Counted from the first letter of the stretch, positions 17,245-27,356 are shown. The stretch is DNA of 33,361 nucleotides from Candidatus Aenigmatarchaeota archaeon (GCA_016198705.1 JACQIA010000047.1:1-33361), one strand, 5' to 3'. Numbers and translations are program-made. The notes: generated by a model from the letters alone, not told the origin.

Positions 17245-17253
17245 GGTTCTAGC
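17245..17253. repeat. Target-site duplication, left copy (GGTTCTAGC)
   Basis: The 9-bp sequence directly abuts the left inverted repeat and recurs exactly at 20925-20933 next to the right one. It lies just after a TATA-like CTATATAAAG (about 17230-17239), so the insertion probably split the start of a former transcript from its promoter. Confidence 0.85.
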
Positions 17254-17348
17254 GGCTTTGCACATAAAGTGCTTCCTGCACATAAACTTGACAAAATAAT
17301 TGAACTTTTCTTGTTATAGTCGCTTAATTTCTCTAGATTTGCTGTTTC

Positions 17349-18836
17349 TCAGCATACAAGTAAGAATAGCCAAATGGGAAGCATTAATATTTTATCATCA
17401 ATCCCAAATGTATCTTTAGTTATACAAAGCCCAAATCCAGATTTATAGTTTTGGATAAATTTCCTAATTGTTTTTAGGTCATCACCACCGATTTTATTCT
17501 TGTATTTCACTTCTATAGGAATAGGTTTATTTTTATGTTCAAAAATTATATCTATTTCACCTTCATCATCTCTCCAATAAAATAATTTTGGATTCGTCTG
17601 TGGCGAAATTTTGAATTTTAGTCTTATGCAATGATTATGGACTATAGTTTCTGCTATCTTTCCCATTTCTCTTTGGTTCAATAGAATAGATTCATCAAAT
17701 GTATTATTGATAACATTTCTTAGTCCAATGTCGTTAAGATAGATTTTCTTAATCTTCTTTTTTAATCGATTGACTTTACTATATCTATAATTTTCAGCCG
17801 TTGATATTATGAAGGCTTCTCCCAAGTATTCTATATATTGACTTATAGTTTTAATGTCCATTTCTAAAATGGAAGATATGTTAGCAATGTTAATATTTTC
17901 TGATGTATCTTTGGATAACAATACTAACAATTTTTCCATTGTGTAGCTTTCTCTTATTTTGTGCACATTTTTAATATCGGTATTAATGACATCTCGTATG
18001 TTTGTTGTTAGAATGTTTATACATCTTCTTAAATTCGGTTCTTTAATTATAGCAGGATAACCACCTTTGATAAAGTAATCGTCAAGAAGTTTTTTTACGG
18101 TTTTTTCAAAAATTAATGTTTGTTTGTATTCCTTATCAAATAGTTTAAAGAAATTAAAAATATGTCTCTTTGTGACTTTTCTAGTTTCCATTAATTTTTT
18201 AAGACCGTCTCTAATTTCTGAAATATTTTCTAAAAAGATTACATCATCTGCCACCCGTTTATTTCGGAAATTATGAAATCGTATAAGTTCTAAAAATTTG
18301 AATGGTACTACTATTTGCGTTTCCGCTCTTCCTACAAATGCTTTAGCACTTTCTTCTAGAATTTTGACACTCGAAGAGCCAGATACAATAAATTTAATAT
18401 TTTTGTTTATGTTATAATAATCTTTGACTATGTTGAACCAATTATCTATTTTTTGGACTTCATCTATGAATACATAGACACTTTTCTGAATTCTTGTTAT
18501 TTCCTCTTTCAGGATAAATCTTTCATAGATATCAAAACAATCTTTAATGACATTTTTGGAAAGTGTATTAAGTTCTGTATTATCACCATAAATCATCAAA
18601 ATCCTATTGGGACTAATTTGTTTTATAAGCAGTTCAATTAACTGTTCCATCAATGTAGTTTTGCCTACTTGTCTAGCACCTATTATTGAAATTATTTCCT
18701 TTTCAGGAACTCTGCTCTTCAAGAATCTAAAATCTAATCGCTTAAATTCTTCAACATAAGGGATTTTACGAGTTTCCCACCACGGATTAAAAACTGATAA
18801 AATCCTTATAATATCCCCTTCAAAGTCATTAACCAT
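17349..18836 (-). CDS. AAA ATPase with C-terminal DUF4143-like nuclease-fold domain (transposon cargo)
   Basis: Walker A is GARQVGKT (53-60), Walker B VYVFIDEVQK (119-128), and the sensor-like VSGSSSVKI follows, as in archaeal AAA ATPases of the COG1373 type. A winged-helix-like middle part leads to the C-terminal DUF4143-type region with DEGEIDIIF and IPIEVKYK, resembling the D...ExK core of PD-(D/E)XK nucleases. The 495 residues are full length for the family. Function is unknown; relatives are common, often multicopy, and patchily distributed. The gene is rich in Ile, Lys and Asn, more AT-rich than its neighbours, fitting transfer. Confidence 0.85.
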   Translation of the reverse strand: MVNDFEGDIIRILSVFNPWWETRKIPYVEEFKRLDFRFLKSRVPEKEIISIIGARQVGKTTLMEQLIELLIKQISPNRILMIYGDNTELNTLSKNVIKDCFDIYERFILKEEITRIQKSVYVFIDEVQKIDNWFNIVKDYYNINKNIKFIVSGSSSVKILEESAKAFVGRAETQIVVPFKFLELIRFHNFRNKRVADDVIFLENISEIRDGLKKLMETRKVTKRHIFNFFKLFDKEYKQTLIFEKTVKKLLDDYFIKGGYPAIIKEPNLRRCINILTTNIRDVINTDIKNVHKIRESYTMEKLLVLLSKDTSENINIANISSILEMDIKTISQYIEYLGEAFIISTAENYRYSKVNRLKKKIKKIYLNDIGLRNVINNTFDESILLNQREMGKIAETIVHNHCIRLKFKISPQTNPKLFYWRDDEGEIDIIFEHKNKPIPIEVKYKNKIGGDDLKTIRKFIQNYKSGFGLCITKDTFGIDDKILMLPIWLFLLVC

Positions 18837-18859
18837 ATAATCACTTAATAGTATTATGA

Positions 18860-18924
18860 TACCATTAAGTACTTAAGTTTAATGGTAGTATAATCCTATT
18901 AATCATATCATTTAATGGGATTAT
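18860..18924. promoter_or_regulatory. Array of inverted half-sites between the two cargo genes
   Basis: Two nested inverted repeats sit upstream of the ATPase start. TACCATTAA (18860-18868) and TTAATGGTA (18879-18887) are perfect 9-bp arms around ACTTAAGT, itself a palindrome. ATAATCCTATTAA (18890-18902) and TTAATGGGATTAT (18912-18924) pair at 12 of 13 bases. The shared half-site CCATTAA suggests one regulator binding several times. Confidence 0.65.
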
Positions 18925-18938
18925 AAAAAGAGGTACAA

Positions 18939-19619
18939 TCACTTTTTTCCATGTGTTTTATCATCTATGGTTTTCTCTAAATTTTCTAAGATACTTATTA
19001 CGGCTTTTATATTTTCTCTAGTTTTTGGCAAACTTATATGAATTTCACCAGCTTTTAATTCTATTAGCTGCGAACTTGTAGGTAATTGTGGCTCATTTAA
19101 GTAAAATGGGTGTTCTGTTAACATTGCAGGTCTTGGTGTTGAAACCACAGTAATACTCTCTAACTTTGCTTTTGTTATTGCATCTAGATAAAGCTTACTG
19201 ATTCGTTCTGCTTCTTTTTGGGCTGTGGCTCTGTCTACTTTAGTAACTTCTTGTAGTATAATCCAGAAATCATTTGACGGTAATTTGCCATTCAAACGTT
19301 CGAATAGTTTTTTCCAAAGTTCTATGTTGAACACCATTTCTGTAATCTTTTGCCTGTATTCAGCATCATCTTTCGGGTAGAGTAAAGCCTCGGCTAATGT
19401 AGAAAGCCACACCTCACCTCTACCCTCAAATAAACCATACTTTCTTAAATCAGCTATCTTCACAAGGAATGTGCCACTTCTGGCATCTTTGTGGCCAATC
19501 ATATTTGCAAGTGCTTCTAAACTACCTTTACCGCTTAATCTCTCCTTAAAATCTCTAGCTATCTTTAATGCTTCTTCTACAGCCAATGTTGGGTAATCGT
19601 AATTTCCTATTTTTGACAT
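18939..19619 (-). CDS. Unknown 226-residue cargo protein, possible DNA binder
   Basis: I do not recognise the family. Residues about 25-75 (GSLEALANMIGHKDARSGTF then LRKYGLFEGRGE) look like a winged-helix segment as seen in some archaeal and plasmid regulators. The middle is helical, and the last 35 residues (ENIKAVISILENLEKTID) form an amphipathic helix. Its own promoter is covered by a perfect 8-2-8 palindrome, and another operator array lies after its stop, before the ATPase. A repressor of the element is a fair guess, not shown. Confidence 0.65.
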   Translation of the reverse strand: MSKIGNYDYPTLAVEEALKIARDFKERLSGKGSLEALANMIGHKDARSGTFLVKIADLRKYGLFEGRGEVWLSTLAEALLYPKDDAEYRQKITEMVFNIELWKKLFERLNGKLPSNDFWIILQEVTKVDRATAQKEAERISKLYLDAITKAKLESITVVSTPRPAMLTEHPFYLNEPQLPTSSQLIELKAGEIHISLPKTRENIKAVISILENLEKTIDDKTHGKK

Positions 19620-19628
19620 AGTATAATT

Positions 19629-19646
19629 AATACCAGAACTGGTATT
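19629..19646 (-). promoter_or_regulatory. Operator palindrome over the TATA box of the 226-residue gene
   Basis: AATACCAG and CTGGTATT form perfect 8-bp arms with a 2-bp centre. On the minus strand the sequence CTTAAATACC at its edge is a TATA-like box about 26 bp before the ATG at 19619, so a bound regulator would block TBP. Confidence 0.6.
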
Positions 19647-19670
19647 TAAGCATTAGGTTTCTGCCATAAA

Positions 19671-19693
19671 TCCTACTGTTTAAAACAGTAGGA
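19671..19693. promoter_or_regulatory. Perfect 11-bp-arm palindrome before the transposase promoter
   Basis: TCCTACTGTTT and AAACAGTAGGA flank one central A. The next 20 bp include TATTTAAATA (19702-19711), a palindromic TATA-like box likely to drive the transposase leader. An operator is more likely than an RNA hairpin because it lies upstream of the predicted transcription start. Confidence 0.55.
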
Positions 19694-19729
19694 AACAGTC
19701 ATATTTAAATAGTAGAAAGTAGTAATATA

Positions 19730-19890
19730 TAGAAGGAAAAATGATGGCAGAGGTGCCGAAAACCTTGCACCGTTGCAGGATGAAAGGAGGCTCCTAGCAA
19801 CAAGTAAATTAATTTCCTCTGCTTGATTTCCTTGTCACTTATAACCGAACCAGAGGAAAGCTTTGGAGGCATCCCCTCTGGGTGAGAACC
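19730..19890 (+). promoter_or_regulatory. Structured 5' leader of the transposase with switchable pairing
   Basis: From the TATA box at 19702 transcription should begin near 19730, leaving a 160-nt leader. GCAGAGG (19747-19753) pairs with CCTCTGC (19816-19822), and CCAGAGG (19850-19856) pairs with CCTCTGG (19875-19881). The second and third segments can also pair over six bases, an attenuator-like choice. Inner helices include TTGC/GCAA with CTTG/CAAG. The last hairpin ends at the ribosome-binding GGTGA (19881-19885), five bases before the ATG. An 18-codon frame (19741-19797) lies in the first stem. Confidence 0.5.
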
Positions 19891-20898
19891 ATGTCCAAAA
19901 ACACGAATCCCACAGATAGTAATGGTAGTTTAGAAATAAATAATGCTACTCTTAAGAAGGTCTATTCGCAAAACTGGTCACTTTACAACCTATCACAAAC
20001 CAAAGAAAAGATGATGTTCCTTAAGCTACTAAACGATGCCGTAGACTTCCTTGGCATAGAATATGAATACGAGTTCGGCCGTCCGCATGTCCCTATAGAC
20101 GACCTAATCAAGTGCTGTGCAATCAAGGTCTTCAACTGCTTCAGCTCAAGAAGAACCATAGCCGAATTACAATTGGCATACGCCTTAGGCTACATCCGCC
20201 AGTCCTATCACTTCAACACAATATCAAAATATATGAACGACCCGACAATCACACCATGGCTTGAGAAGTTATACAAACTGCTTGCGTTGTCGTTGGTGGA
20301 TACTGAAAGCGTTTTTGCAGTGGACGCCACTGGCTTCGGGTTGCCACATAAAATCAGGTGGAAAGAAATCCGCATGAAGAAACTATATAGGGAAGTCCAT
20401 GACTTCAAGAAACTGCACATCATAAGCGGAGTTCGAACCAACATCATTACTTCTGCAAAAGTCACCAATGGCACAAGAAGCGACAATCCAGAATTCGAAA
20501 ATCTCGTAAGAGCTACCTCAAAGCAATTCAGGATGAAAGAAATACTCGCGGACGCTGGCTACTTATCACGGAAGAACTGCGGAATATCCGAAGAAGTAGG
20601 TGCTGTTCCTTATATCTTTCCAAAAGCAGGAGTCCGCCCAAGGAGCCACGGCTACCGTGCGTGGACAAGAATGATAAGGCTCTGGAAGGAGAACAAGCAG
20701 GCTTTCAGGGAGCATTACCACCAGAGGAGCAACGTTGAAAGCACTTTCTCCGCCTTGAAAAGAAAGTTCTCGGGGTTTGTTAGGAGCAAAAAAGACACCG
20801 CACAGACGAACGAGATTCTCGCCAAGGTTGTCTGCCACAACGTTGCGGTCTTGATTTCCTCTATTTTTTGCCTAGGCGTGGAAGTTGATTTTGACTAA
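19891..20898 (+). CDS. DDE transposase (IS4/IS5-like superfamily)
   Basis: I use the ATG at 19891, five bases after GGTGA; a GTG nine bases earlier is possible. Its 335 residues have an N-terminal helical region (LIKCCAIKVFNCFSSRRTIA) of the kind that binds inverted repeats, then the RNase H-like core: FAVDATGF (first Asp), ILADAGYLS (second Asp) and SNVESTFSALKRKF (Glu with the Y/K-rich signature). All catalytic residues are present and there is no frameshift, so it may be active. It cuts and joins the ends described at 17254 and 20924. Confidence 0.9.
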   Translation: MSKNTNPTDSNGSLEINNATLKKVYSQNWSLYNLSQTKEKMMFLKLLNDAVDFLGIEYEYEFGRPHVPIDDLIKCCAIKVFNCFSSRRTIAELQLAYALGYIRQSYHFNTISKYMNDPTITPWLEKLYKLLALSLVDTESVFAVDATGFGLPHKIRWKEIRMKKLYREVHDFKKLHIISGVRTNIITSAKVTNGTRSDNPEFENLVRATSKQFRMKEILADAGYLSRKNCGISEEVGAVPYIFPKAGVRPRSHGYRAWTRMIRLWKENKQAFREHYHQRSNVESTFSALKRKFSGFVRSKKDTAQTNEILAKVVCHNVAVLISSIFCLGVEVDFD

Positions 20899-20924
20899 AA
20901 CACTAAGACTTTATGTGCAAAGCT

Positions 20925-20933
20925 GGTTCTAGC
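20925..20933. repeat. Target-site duplication, right copy (GGTTCTAGC)
   Basis: Identical to 17245-17253 and adjoining the right inverted repeat. Removing the element plus one copy would rejoin CTATATAAAG...GGTTCTAGC to AGTAGATAGCAATG. Confidence 0.85.
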
Positions 20934-24076: not shown

Positions 24077-24398
24077 TTTATCAAGTCTAGCAAACCTCAG
24101 GCTCTTAGTAACAGCGGGCTGAACATCTCGGACGAATCCTTGATGCGTACACCCCTGTCCTATCAATCACATCGTCTATGTGGGCCTTCGTGCTACTACC
24201 GATTCTTGCGAACCAGCAGTAGCAATGACTGACTATTTTTCCGAATGGTTTCGAGCTTAGATGCTTTCAGCTCTTATCCATGTATGGCTTAGCTGCCCTG
24301 CACGCAATAACGACAGGTACACCAGAGGCCACGGGGGGATGTTCCTTTCGTACTTGTCCCTCCTTCCGGTCAGTCAATCAACACCTCTAATAGATAGC

Positions 24399-24432
<34 letters not shown>

Positions 24433-24559
24433 AGCGTCCCCTTTTAACCAGTGGACACCTGTACCCTTGGCTGCTGCTGCACAGCCAGGAGAGGGGGAGC
24501 CGACAACGACGCACCAACGCGCCGGGTCAATGTGGGCTTTCACCGGCCACGGGCCCATT

Positions 24560-24691
24560 TTGGGGGCATCGGTAAAGATGACTCTACCATGTTACCTTGG
24601 TGAGCCTATGGCCTTGAACGTCTTTTTCGATCCGTAGAACTACTACAACAGTTCAACTGGGATAGATGATGGAAAATACTCCACCGATGCT
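24560..24691 (-). other. BHB intron in 23S, peptidyl transferase centre (132 nt)
   Basis: The conserved ACCTCGGGGATA is interrupted right after U2449 (E. coli numbering) and resumes with the helix-89 region. Central helix GGGG/CCCC, bulges ATA (24693-24691) and AAA (24561-24559), inner helix GCATCGGT/ACCGATGC. Splicing gives GGGGAT-AATGGGCC, keeping A2450 and A2451. The canonical form GGGGATAACAGG is one base longer, so the exact 3' cut or nearby bases are uncertain. Confidence 0.78.
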
Positions 24692-24835
24692 ATCCCCGAG
24701 GTAACTTTTCTTATACCACCGACAGCCATTAAGGCCGTTCGATGTATCGCTAACCCATGCTTTCGCAGCTGAATCCCTTGCTTTTCGGGATACAGTCAGC
24801 CCAACTTTTGCGTTTACACTCTACTCCGGATTTCT

Positions 24836-24928
24836 TGCGGGCAACAAATGCCTATATTGTTCATTAGTTACCTCCCTACTCATCTTTTTTCATACTGGAA
24901 TGGTTTAATCATCACCAGCACTTGCTGT
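24836..24928 (-). other. BHB intron in 23S, domain V near E. coli 2300-2315 (93 nt)
   Basis: Central helix CGGG/CCCG, bulges TCA and CAA, inner helix CAGCAAG/TTTGTTG. Cutting after the second base of each bulge joins CCGGGTC to AGAAATCCGG, restoring the archaeal hairpin GGGTCAGAAACCC almost exactly. This junction is strong support for the BHB reading of the whole locus. Confidence 0.88.
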
Positions 24929-25132
24929 GACCCGGATGAGTTGAGCTTTGGGATTCCTTGATATCTTCTCAAGGAAGTACCACCCCAGCCGAACTGCCCA
25001 TCTGACGTTGTCCTATTGCTAGTAAGCAACACAGTTTTGAAAGGGTAGTGTTACACTTTCCTCTCAGCTTTCGGCCGAAGCCTAAGCCTTAGCGAGTACT
25101 ACCTACTCTATGCAACCAAAACCGTATCGCAG

Positions 25133-25163
<31 letters not shown>

Positions 25164-25167
25164 ACGT

Positions 25168-25204
25168 ATTGGGTTATCGAGATAGATAATTCTACATCAA
25201 TAAT
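25168..25204 (-). other. BHB intron in 23S near E. coli 2054 (37 nt)
   Basis: Central helix TGGG/CCCA, bulges AAA and ATA, inner helix beginning TTATTGA/TCGATAA with a longer imperfect stem beyond. Splicing gives AGTGGGAA-ACGTAGACCCC, the same length as CAGCAAGACGGAAAGACC up to that point. In that alignment 2057 is C and its partner 2611 is G, a compensated pair, and 2058 is G as in other archaea. Confidence 0.75.
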
Positions 25205-26675
25205 TTCCCACTAGAGGTCTCTGGCCTATTCACCAGAAAAGCAATTTCGCTGGGTACCAACCCAAGACAGCGGGCAAGTCGTTAAGCCATTCAGACAGGC
25301 CGTTAATTAAACGGCAAGGGATTACGCTACTTTACGACAGTCAGAGTTACTGCCGCCGTTTACTGGGGCTTCTTCCTGTTGAAACAGGGCTTGACACACC
25401 AGTACTGGGCAGGCATAAGAAACTGTACTCAAGCTTTCGCTTTAGCAGTCTCCATCGTTTTTGTTAAACAGTCGCTTGCCCCTTGTAACTGTGGCCTGCT
25501 ACTAGCAAGTAACAGGCATGGCTTCTAGCGAACATACACCACTAATTTGCCGATTTCCTTAGATTGGGTTCTCCCACTCCACCATTGCCTTCTCAGCAAC
25601 TCCACCTGTGGCGGTTCTCGGTATGGACATGAAGGATCCTTGCAAATTCCCTTTTCACGGGCTCTCGGAATCAGCCGAACTCTGCATACGCAGAGCTGTT
25701 CCTGCATTCACCTGCTTCTCCTCATTACAAGACTCCGCAGGCTTCAGCAGTTAACTTGCGTCAGCTCATCCAAAAGCGTCAGGAATTTGCCTTGTGTTGC
25801 CACACGTACCTTCATGGCACCGGAATATTAACCGGTTTCCCATCAAGTACTCCAGTTGAGGGTACCTTTAGAGATCAGCTAACTGCCAGCTGATGAACAT
25901 TGCTGGCAAACCCTTGGAGTTTAGGCGACTGGGAATTTCACCCAGCTCTGTTGCTACTTTTGGCAGGATCTTCAATTCCACACGGTCCACTTCTGCTTAC
26001 GCAGAAGCTTCTATCCATGCAGAACGCCTCCCTACCCCTGCTTTCGCAGTCTAGGGTATCGGTATTTAGCTTAGTCTCTTCCATCTTCAGGGCCAGAATT
26101 CTCGGTAGCTAAGCTGTTACGCATTTCTTAGCTGATGGCTGCTTCTGAGCCTACAGCGCTACTGTCTGAGAATTCCAACTCCCTTCTTCGTTTAGCTAAA
26201 ATTTAGAGACCTTAACCTTAGGTTGGGTTGTTCCCCTTGTGGATGCCGAGCTTACCCCAGCACCCTCACTCCCGCCTTCTACGCTTGTACCTGGTTCGGA
26301 GTTTGACAGGACAGCTGAACCTTTCGGTCCTTGACAATCCAATCAGTAACTCTACCCAAATACATAGCTCTGGCGAGGCTGCACTAACATGCATTTCGGG
26401 AGGAATCAGCTATCCGGCGTCTCGTTAGGCTTTTCACCACTAATCCTAACTCACCCGAGAGGATGTCAGCCCATCACCGGTAGCAGGCTTCCATCTCTCT
26501 TTCGAGAGACTTCGCCTTGGTCAGGATTAGATCGACGCCCTTCGGATCTTGCCCTAGTGATTTCCCGCCCTTTCAGACGGTGTCCCATTCTCGCGATACG
26601 GACAATTGCTTTCGCTTTGGTTTCATGGCTTAAACCACTTAACCTCACCACTAAGACAAACTCCCTGCCCCGTGT

Positions 26676-26724
26676 ATTTCGTTAGAGGAAATGAAGAAAC
26701 AACAATACTTACACTTCATCTAAT
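26676..26724 (-). other. BHB intron in 23S, domain II near E. coli 675 (49 nt)
   Basis: Central helix TTCG/CGAA, bulges AAA and ATA, inner helices TTAG/CTAA and ATGAAG/CTTCAT. Splicing joins CCGTTTCGAA to ACACGGGGC, restoring the conserved hairpin CCGTTTTGAAACACGG just before CAGGGAGT. Confidence 0.86.
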
Positions 26725-27356
26725 TTCGAAACGGACGCTATGACCCTGTAAGCTGCTTTTAGTTGCCTTCAAGCAGCACCTTCCGAGCCATAGCTGACTA
26801 ACTCCATCTTGGTTTCAGGCTCTTTTTACCCGGCTTTCGCCGTACTTTTCAGCTTTCTATCACTATACTAGTGCGCTATCGGACTCTACACATATTTAGA
26901 GTTGCCAGTTAATGCCTGGCAGATTCCTGCTCCATATCCAAGGAACAGTATTCAGGATACTTGGAATCCTCTTTCCACCCTTCCTTTACGGGGCTATCAC
27001 CCTCTTAGGCAGAGCTTTCCAGCTCATTCGAGTCGGCTGGTTAAGAAGTACCCAAGTCCTACTACACCACATCCATCCATAATTTCTTATGGCGTTCGGT
27101 TTGCTCTGTTTCCCTTTTACTCGCCGTTACTAAGGAAATCTCTATTGGTTTCTTTTCCTGCGGCTACTAAGATGCTTCACTTCTCCGCGTTCCTTTTCCT
27201 TTCGGAATTGGCCGAAGCCAACGAATCGCATTCAGATATCCCAGGGTCAAAACCTCCTTGCGGTTAACCTGGGCTTATCGCAGCTTGGCACGTCCTTCGT
27301 CAGTGTATAGAGCCGAGCCATCCACCAAGTGGATACTGTTGACTAGACCTTTTGAC

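Follow-up and report, generated by a model that had tools for sequence, protein, structure and literature searches.

Transposons that move defence genes have a precedent in the Tn7-like elements, in which a conserved transposition module is combined with a variable, defence-rich cargo (PMC8649781). Compact carriers are also known as transporter IS (tIS) or unit transposons, in which one transposase, short inverted ends and a target duplication accompany unrelated passenger genes. Within the IS5 family, IS903 has ends beginning GGCTTTG and a 9-bp target duplication. PDC-S01 is a PADLOC candidate system that a survey of archaeal immunity reports to be fourth in frequency among predicted defences and to have crossed domains several times; in DPANN archaea, CRISPR and restriction systems are few and candidates of the PDC-S01 type many, and most such candidates await experimental validation (PMC12988326).

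Here we describe an element in a 33,361-nucleotide contig of a Candidatus Aenigmatarchaeota archaeon (GCA_016198705.1, JACQIA010000047.1), the whole of which is referred to as the window. The element is very probably a complete unit transposon belonging to a distinct IS5-like clade, a defence-gene shuttle with a probable self-repressing regulator. It shares with the IS903 subgroup of the IS5 family a DDE transposase of the IS4/IS5 superfamily, and its GGCTTTG-type ends and 9-bp duplication, found in the window and in 36 of 41 elements delimited below, resemble those of IS903 as generally described. Unlike IS5 elements, the delimited members of the clade are all far longer than a bare insertion sequence, and many of their transposases bear an N-terminal SWIM-like zinc-binding segment. 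The anatomy is that of tIS and unit transposons, whereas no description of an IS5-like clade with defence-dominated cargo was found among them in the open literature searched. The clade parallels Tn7-like transposons in pairing constant transposition functions with changing defence genes, but it has a single DDE transposase, lacks a TnsA-E-like set and spans 2.4-7.9 kb. The features of the window element are as follows (strand in parentheses, where one applies; basis after the semicolon, where one is given).

17245-17253: left target duplication, GGTTCTAGC; sequence
17254-17270 (+): left terminal inverted repeat, GGCTTTGCACATAAAGT; repeat search and family end delimitation
17349-18836 (-): AAA_14 ATPase plus DUF4143 protein, 495 aa; Pfam, PADLOC and motif reading
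18845-18902: 24-nt inverted repeat (88%) upstream of the AAA/DUF4143 gene, possible operator; repeat search
18939-19619 (-): winged-helix DNA-binding-like protein, 226 aa, probable regulator; homologues and predicted structure
19630-19645: palindrome ATACCAGAACTGGTAT, probable operator
19672-19692: palindrome CCTACTGTTTAAAACAGTAGG, probable operator
19700-19712 (+): TATA-like box CATATTTAAATAG, ~25 nt upstream of the structured RNA; sequence
19730-19836 (+): structured RNA closed by a kink-turn, divergent from the winged-helix gene
19850-19881 (+): hairpin CCAGAGGAAAGCTTTGGAGGCATCCCCTCTGG with GGAGG in its loop, immediately before the GTG start of the transposase
19882-20898 (+): IS5-like DDE transposase, 338 aa, with D148, D224 and E286; Pfam, NCBIfam and alignment
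20908-20924 (-): right terminal inverted repeat, complement of GGCTTTGCACATAAAGT; repeat search and family end delimitation
20925-20933: right target duplication, GGTTCTAGC; sequence

Boundaries and insertion site

Direct reading and a repeat search placed the transposon at 17254-20924, which, with the ends counted in, amounts to the 3671 bp that a sequence-only reading of the window had proposed. The 17-bp terminal inverted repeats pair at 16 of 17 positions, the sole mismatch being the outermost base (G/A), and the flanking 9-mer GGTTCTAGC occurs on the + strand of the window at 17245-17253 and 20925-20933 only. When inverted repeats and duplication were scored together, the window site reached 25, whereas 209 controls, in each of which the left side of one locus was paired with the right side of another, reached at most 19. 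The claim of a cargo transposon with exact ends was therefore upheld, and it extends to a large family. The unit carries two genes besides that for the transposase and so is not a classic insertion sequence.

The element sits between the genes for TFB and histone, which are 3.9 kb apart in the window. In other members of the host's family, these two genes adjoin at the corresponding place, only 170-1294 bp apart and mostly with eIF5A next, indicating that the insertion place is vacant there. Since the intergenic DNA has diverged, no base-exact empty site was found in these relatives; the proposed search for an empty site gave a syntenic vacancy. The sequence-only reading had named two grounds for doubt, a nearer left end and relatives holding the cargo genes here without the ends. 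No nearer left end was found for the window transposase, whose relatives likewise have distant left ends with cargo in between, and the family members have no cargo between TFB and histone.

Two 100% identical 88-bp non-autonomous elements with the ends GCTTTGCACCTAAAGT...GTGCAAAGC are present in the same genome (G000 C22:20698-20785 and C44:12635-12722; L047 and L048), each with its own 9-bp duplication (CCAAGTAGA on C22 and AGCTAAAAG on C44), and older variants lie on C91 and C16. These copies show that the 9-bp rule holds in the window's genome and that such ends moved there recently. One of 16 end positions sets them apart from the window ends, so a related transposase may be what moves them. 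A second copy of the 3671-bp element was not found in this genome.

Elsewhere in the window, at 24083-27350 (-), a match to 23S rRNA is ~280 nt longer than the archaeal model; the extra stretch is possibly an intron or an expansion.

The transposase

The transposase matches Pfam DDE_Tnp_1 (E = 1e-15), and D148, D224 and E286 occupy columns that are invariant in 11 relatives, showing that the catalytic triad is intact; the element may be active at present. The best NCBIfam model was IS5_2 at 108.1 bits, which is under the curated cut-off of 140 bits, and annotated IS5 transposases on plasmids are only ~25% identical to the window protein. Its closest relative, at 61% identity, comes from an Omnitrophota MAG (L099), and a PDB sequence search returned no solved relative. 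The SWIM-like segment (CxC...CxH) seen in many relatives is absent from the window's transposase. No further transposition protein is encoded among the ORFs of the element, and one pair of ends and a single target duplication surround the transposase and the passenger genes.

A hairpin of the form CCAGAGGAAAGCTTTG...CCTCTGG directly precedes the GTG of two different transposase-type genes, in the window (19850-19881) and in L090 (near 5400). As a family-wide element, the CCAGAGG hairpin was rejected, since, apart from those in the window, in L090 and, by eye, in L087, the pattern matches looked chance-like. Just upstream of the L099 transposase lies a tRNA-like gene (L099:3557-3628; Rfam tRNA, 39.7 bits), and no tRNA match was seen at any other locus.

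A family of cargo carriers

Transposase relatives were gathered from genomes of the phylum Aenigmatarchaeota and from a species-wide genome collection, and elements were delimited by inverted ends plus a duplication of at least 8 bp flanking each transposase site. By this measure, 60 of 107 transposase loci qualified, compared to 13 of the 209 mismatched controls, none of which scored 20 or more. The non-redundant set, defined by a score of 20 or more, comprised 41 elements in archaea and bacteria, with exact 9-bp duplications in 36 and a family end consensus of GGCTTTGYNNNAWAAR. Lengths lay between 2392 and 7898 bp, with a median of 4978 bp. None of the 41 was a bare insertion sequence, the shortest being 2.39 kb, and L158 was the sole element without a further ORF of at least 100 aa; some of the 47 sites that could not be delimited may, however, be bare or degraded insertion sequences. 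Among the hosts are DPANN archaea, Thermoplasmata, Methanomicrobia, Chloroflexota, Acidobacteria and Sorangium. Since the loci come mostly from MAGs, the host assignments of L099 (Omnitrophota) and L132 (Fusobacteriaceae) could be binning errors. Viral contigs from IMG/VR (L198-L238) contain the same clade with ends and 9-bp duplications, 21 of 35 sites being delimited. We found no account in the open literature of an IS5-like cargo clade with defence genes; this clade of cargo carriers is apparently undescribed so far, a novelty that is provisional since ISfinder and subscription journals were outside the scope of the search.

On one Blastocatellia contig (DNNE01000076.1; L138 and L147), three different elements, two of them side by side, are inserted at the same 9-bp target, GAACCATAG or its complement, which hints at a target preference.

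Cargo content and turnover

We compared the cargo of the clade, 121 ORFs (117 from delimited elements and four from L050 and L073), with 119 ORFs located within 3 kb outside the elements and scanned at identical settings. In the cargo, N6_Mtase was found in eight cases, Eco57I in seven, C5 methylase, D12 and N6_N4 in four each, DUF4143 and Vsr in two each and DruA in one, along with MamI and others. The PADLOC families with a match numbered 346 in the cargo as against 21, one protein each, in the flanks, which hold housekeeping families and, among their PADLOC matches, one DUF4143 gene. Clearly, restriction-modification and other defence families dominate the cargo of the clade but not the flanks. 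DUF4143 itself is carried by two of the 41 elements, the window's and L167. The proposal that the patchy spread of DUF4143 genes is explained by transposon carriage thus holds in part: the clade is such a vehicle, but since these genes also occur outside the elements, the transposon is one route and not the whole explanation.

Comparison of related elements showed how the cargo changes. L127 and L121 are 87% identical at the DNA level over 1654 bp, a stretch that starts shortly ahead of the transposase and runs to the right end, and have nothing else in common. L132 (Fusobacteriaceae MAG) and L155 (Nanoarchaeota MAG) agree in the transposase and over the initial 45 bp of the left end, but not in the cargo, and L138 and L147 are likewise alike in backbone and different in cargo. 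Cargo pairs also recur: L060 and L162 carry the same pair (proteins 54% and 50% identical, transposases 48%), as do L138 and L146 across domains (67% and 47%, transposases 45-47%). Ends and transposase are conserved across the clade while the interior is swapped.

The pair of L060 (5113-7038) and L162 (4062-5975), common to Aenigmatarchaeota and Nanohalarchaeota elements, consists of a 478-aa protein with a GGQHR stretch and a 162-aa protein. In L060, neither protein had a Pfam match and the 478-aa protein had no PADLOC match; the two genes are a candidate for a new defence pair.

The DUF4143 protein

The 495-aa cargo protein has a Walker A motif (GARQVGKT), a Walker B motif (FIDE) and a C-terminal, nuclease-like EID...IEVK, and it matches seven PADLOC models of PDC-S01, the best near full-length with an E-value of 5e-54. 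It thus resembles PDC-S01 in its AAA and DUF4143 parts and in its motifs, and differs in that the window copy lies inside a delimited transposon. A PDB sequence search found no solved relative. Judging from the PADLOC matches and the motifs, the protein is probably an ATP-driven, nuclease-like defence protein.

The winged-helix gene and the structured RNA

Pfam and NCBIfam searches gave no match for the 226-aa protein. Its predicted structure (pLDDT 82) opens with a MarR-type winged helix and continues into a helical part. The winged helix, which is a common fold, could be matched over 67 residues (2.1 A, Z 8.5). A more specific regulator function was sought by fold search and set aside, the search giving only common winged-helix matches plus a weak similarity to FokI recognition, and so we claim nothing past DNA binding for the protein. 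Homologues occur at about a dozen loci, several within related elements: they lie beside clade transposases in L050 and L051, with another small gene between in L063, and next to a different transposase-like gene in L087 and L090. In L087, an Rfam RT-16 RNA match (2634-2793, -; 98.5 bits) lies near the winged-helix homologue of G008, possibly representing a retron-like element in the archaeal family of that genome.

Two palindromes upstream of the gene are among very few that strong in the window. The suggestion of a self-regulated module is plausible as far as its parts are concerned, namely a winged-helix protein, two strong palindromes and a divergent RNA at the promoter. The protein is predicted to act as a repressor, probably of its own promoter and the RNA promoter and perhaps of the expression of the transposase.

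The RNA is closed by a kink-turn with a stem at 19733-19739/19827-19833 (AAGGAAA/TTTCCTT), an AAT bulge, tandem GA and a second stem at 19745-19753/19816-19824. The same architecture, built from different bases, was found at L050:8941-9085 (-) and L063:6345-6487 (+). Across these sequences, 7 of 15 pairs have double-sided, compensatory changes, which support the structure, and 93% of cells pair; none of 500 shuffles matched both measures, and sliding the stem partner out of register abolished pairing. A motif scan of both window strands gave no other kink-turn match of comparable quality. A covariance model (R1), searched against 155 genomes of the phylum and 80 loci, convincingly recovered the three founders only, and the leaders of L051 and L105 are structured yet not clear members of the RNA family. 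The three-nucleotide bulge and tandem GA between stems are those of archaeal kink-turn RNAs, such as box C/D and others bound by L7Ae; unlike these, the window-type RNA has no Rfam match, was found in three elements only and lies beside a winged-helix gene. An Rfam search of the RNA stretch gave nothing convincing and ARAGORN no tRNA; assignments as a box C/D guide, a tRNA-like RNA or an Rfam family were rejected.

Alternative explanations

A short insertion sequence could lie here beside resident genes, with the left repeat and duplication arising by chance and the DUF4143 and winged-helix genes being native. The transposase alone would suit a normal insertion sequence of 1.1-1.3 kb. However, 16 contiguous matching end bases with an exact 9-mer on either side gave a score equalled by no control, forty sister elements are organised in a similar way, the cargo is missing from the corresponding place in relatives and the search for a nearer left end came up empty, making this explanation extremely improbable. 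A more serious question is whether the AAA/DUF4143 cargo is antiviral at all, or serves instead in housekeeping or in keeping the transposon stable. The status of PDC-S01 as a candidate, with validation pending for most of its kind (PMC12988326), and the DUF4143 gene in the flank control would fit such a role, whereas recognised defence genes are frequent in sister elements and PDC-S01 is reported both as a very common predicted defence and as one transferred across domains (PMC12988326); we therefore think a non-antiviral role possible but somewhat doubtful.

The winged-helix gene and kink-turn RNA could also be a separate passenger, an RNA-protein toxin-antitoxin or defence module, rather than the transposon's own regulator. 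The L105 homologue adjoins a DNA methylase and not a transposase, the RNA in L050 and L063 is away from the transposase start, past another small gene, and the L087 and L090 homologues adjoin another transposase type. Yet the pair directly precedes the window transposase, the homologues recur beside transposases (L050, L051, L087 and L090), as suits a regulator of transposition, and the fold is that of a DNA-binding winged helix and of no known toxin, so that a separate module seems a tenable but not the likelier origin. An RNA-protein control unit, in which a kink-turn RNA clamped by L7Ae and the winged-helix protein would govern transposition or the defence gene, the RNA acting as guide, decoy or antitoxin, is unlikely on present indications; if true, it would be RNA control of a kind not described for IS5-like elements.

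Proposed mechanism and significance

We favour the reading of the element as a complete defence-carrying unit transposon. The transposase encoded beside the right end would recognise the GGCTTTG-type ends, excise or copy the element and join it to the target with a 9-bp staggered cut. All DNA between the ends would move as cargo, here the predicted AAA ATPase/PD-(D/E)XK-like nuclease (DUF4143), the winged-helix gene and the kink-turn RNA. Further cargo might be gained where a new end inserts, or recombines, on the far side of an adjacent gene. The winged-helix protein would bind the palindromes and control how much is made of its own transcript, the RNA and perhaps the transposase.

Since ends and transposase are kept and the interior is mostly defence, the clade serves as a carrier that passes defence genes around DPANN archaea, other archaeal groups and bacteria. 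The window element provides a physical vehicle for the transfer of PDC-S01, in the form of a compact, single-transposase transposon with exact ends. Since sequence reveals both the ends and the 9-bp duplication, mobile defence cargo can be listed by delimiting interiors, and such a listing for this clade also covers unknown genes, in uncultured archaea and bacteria.
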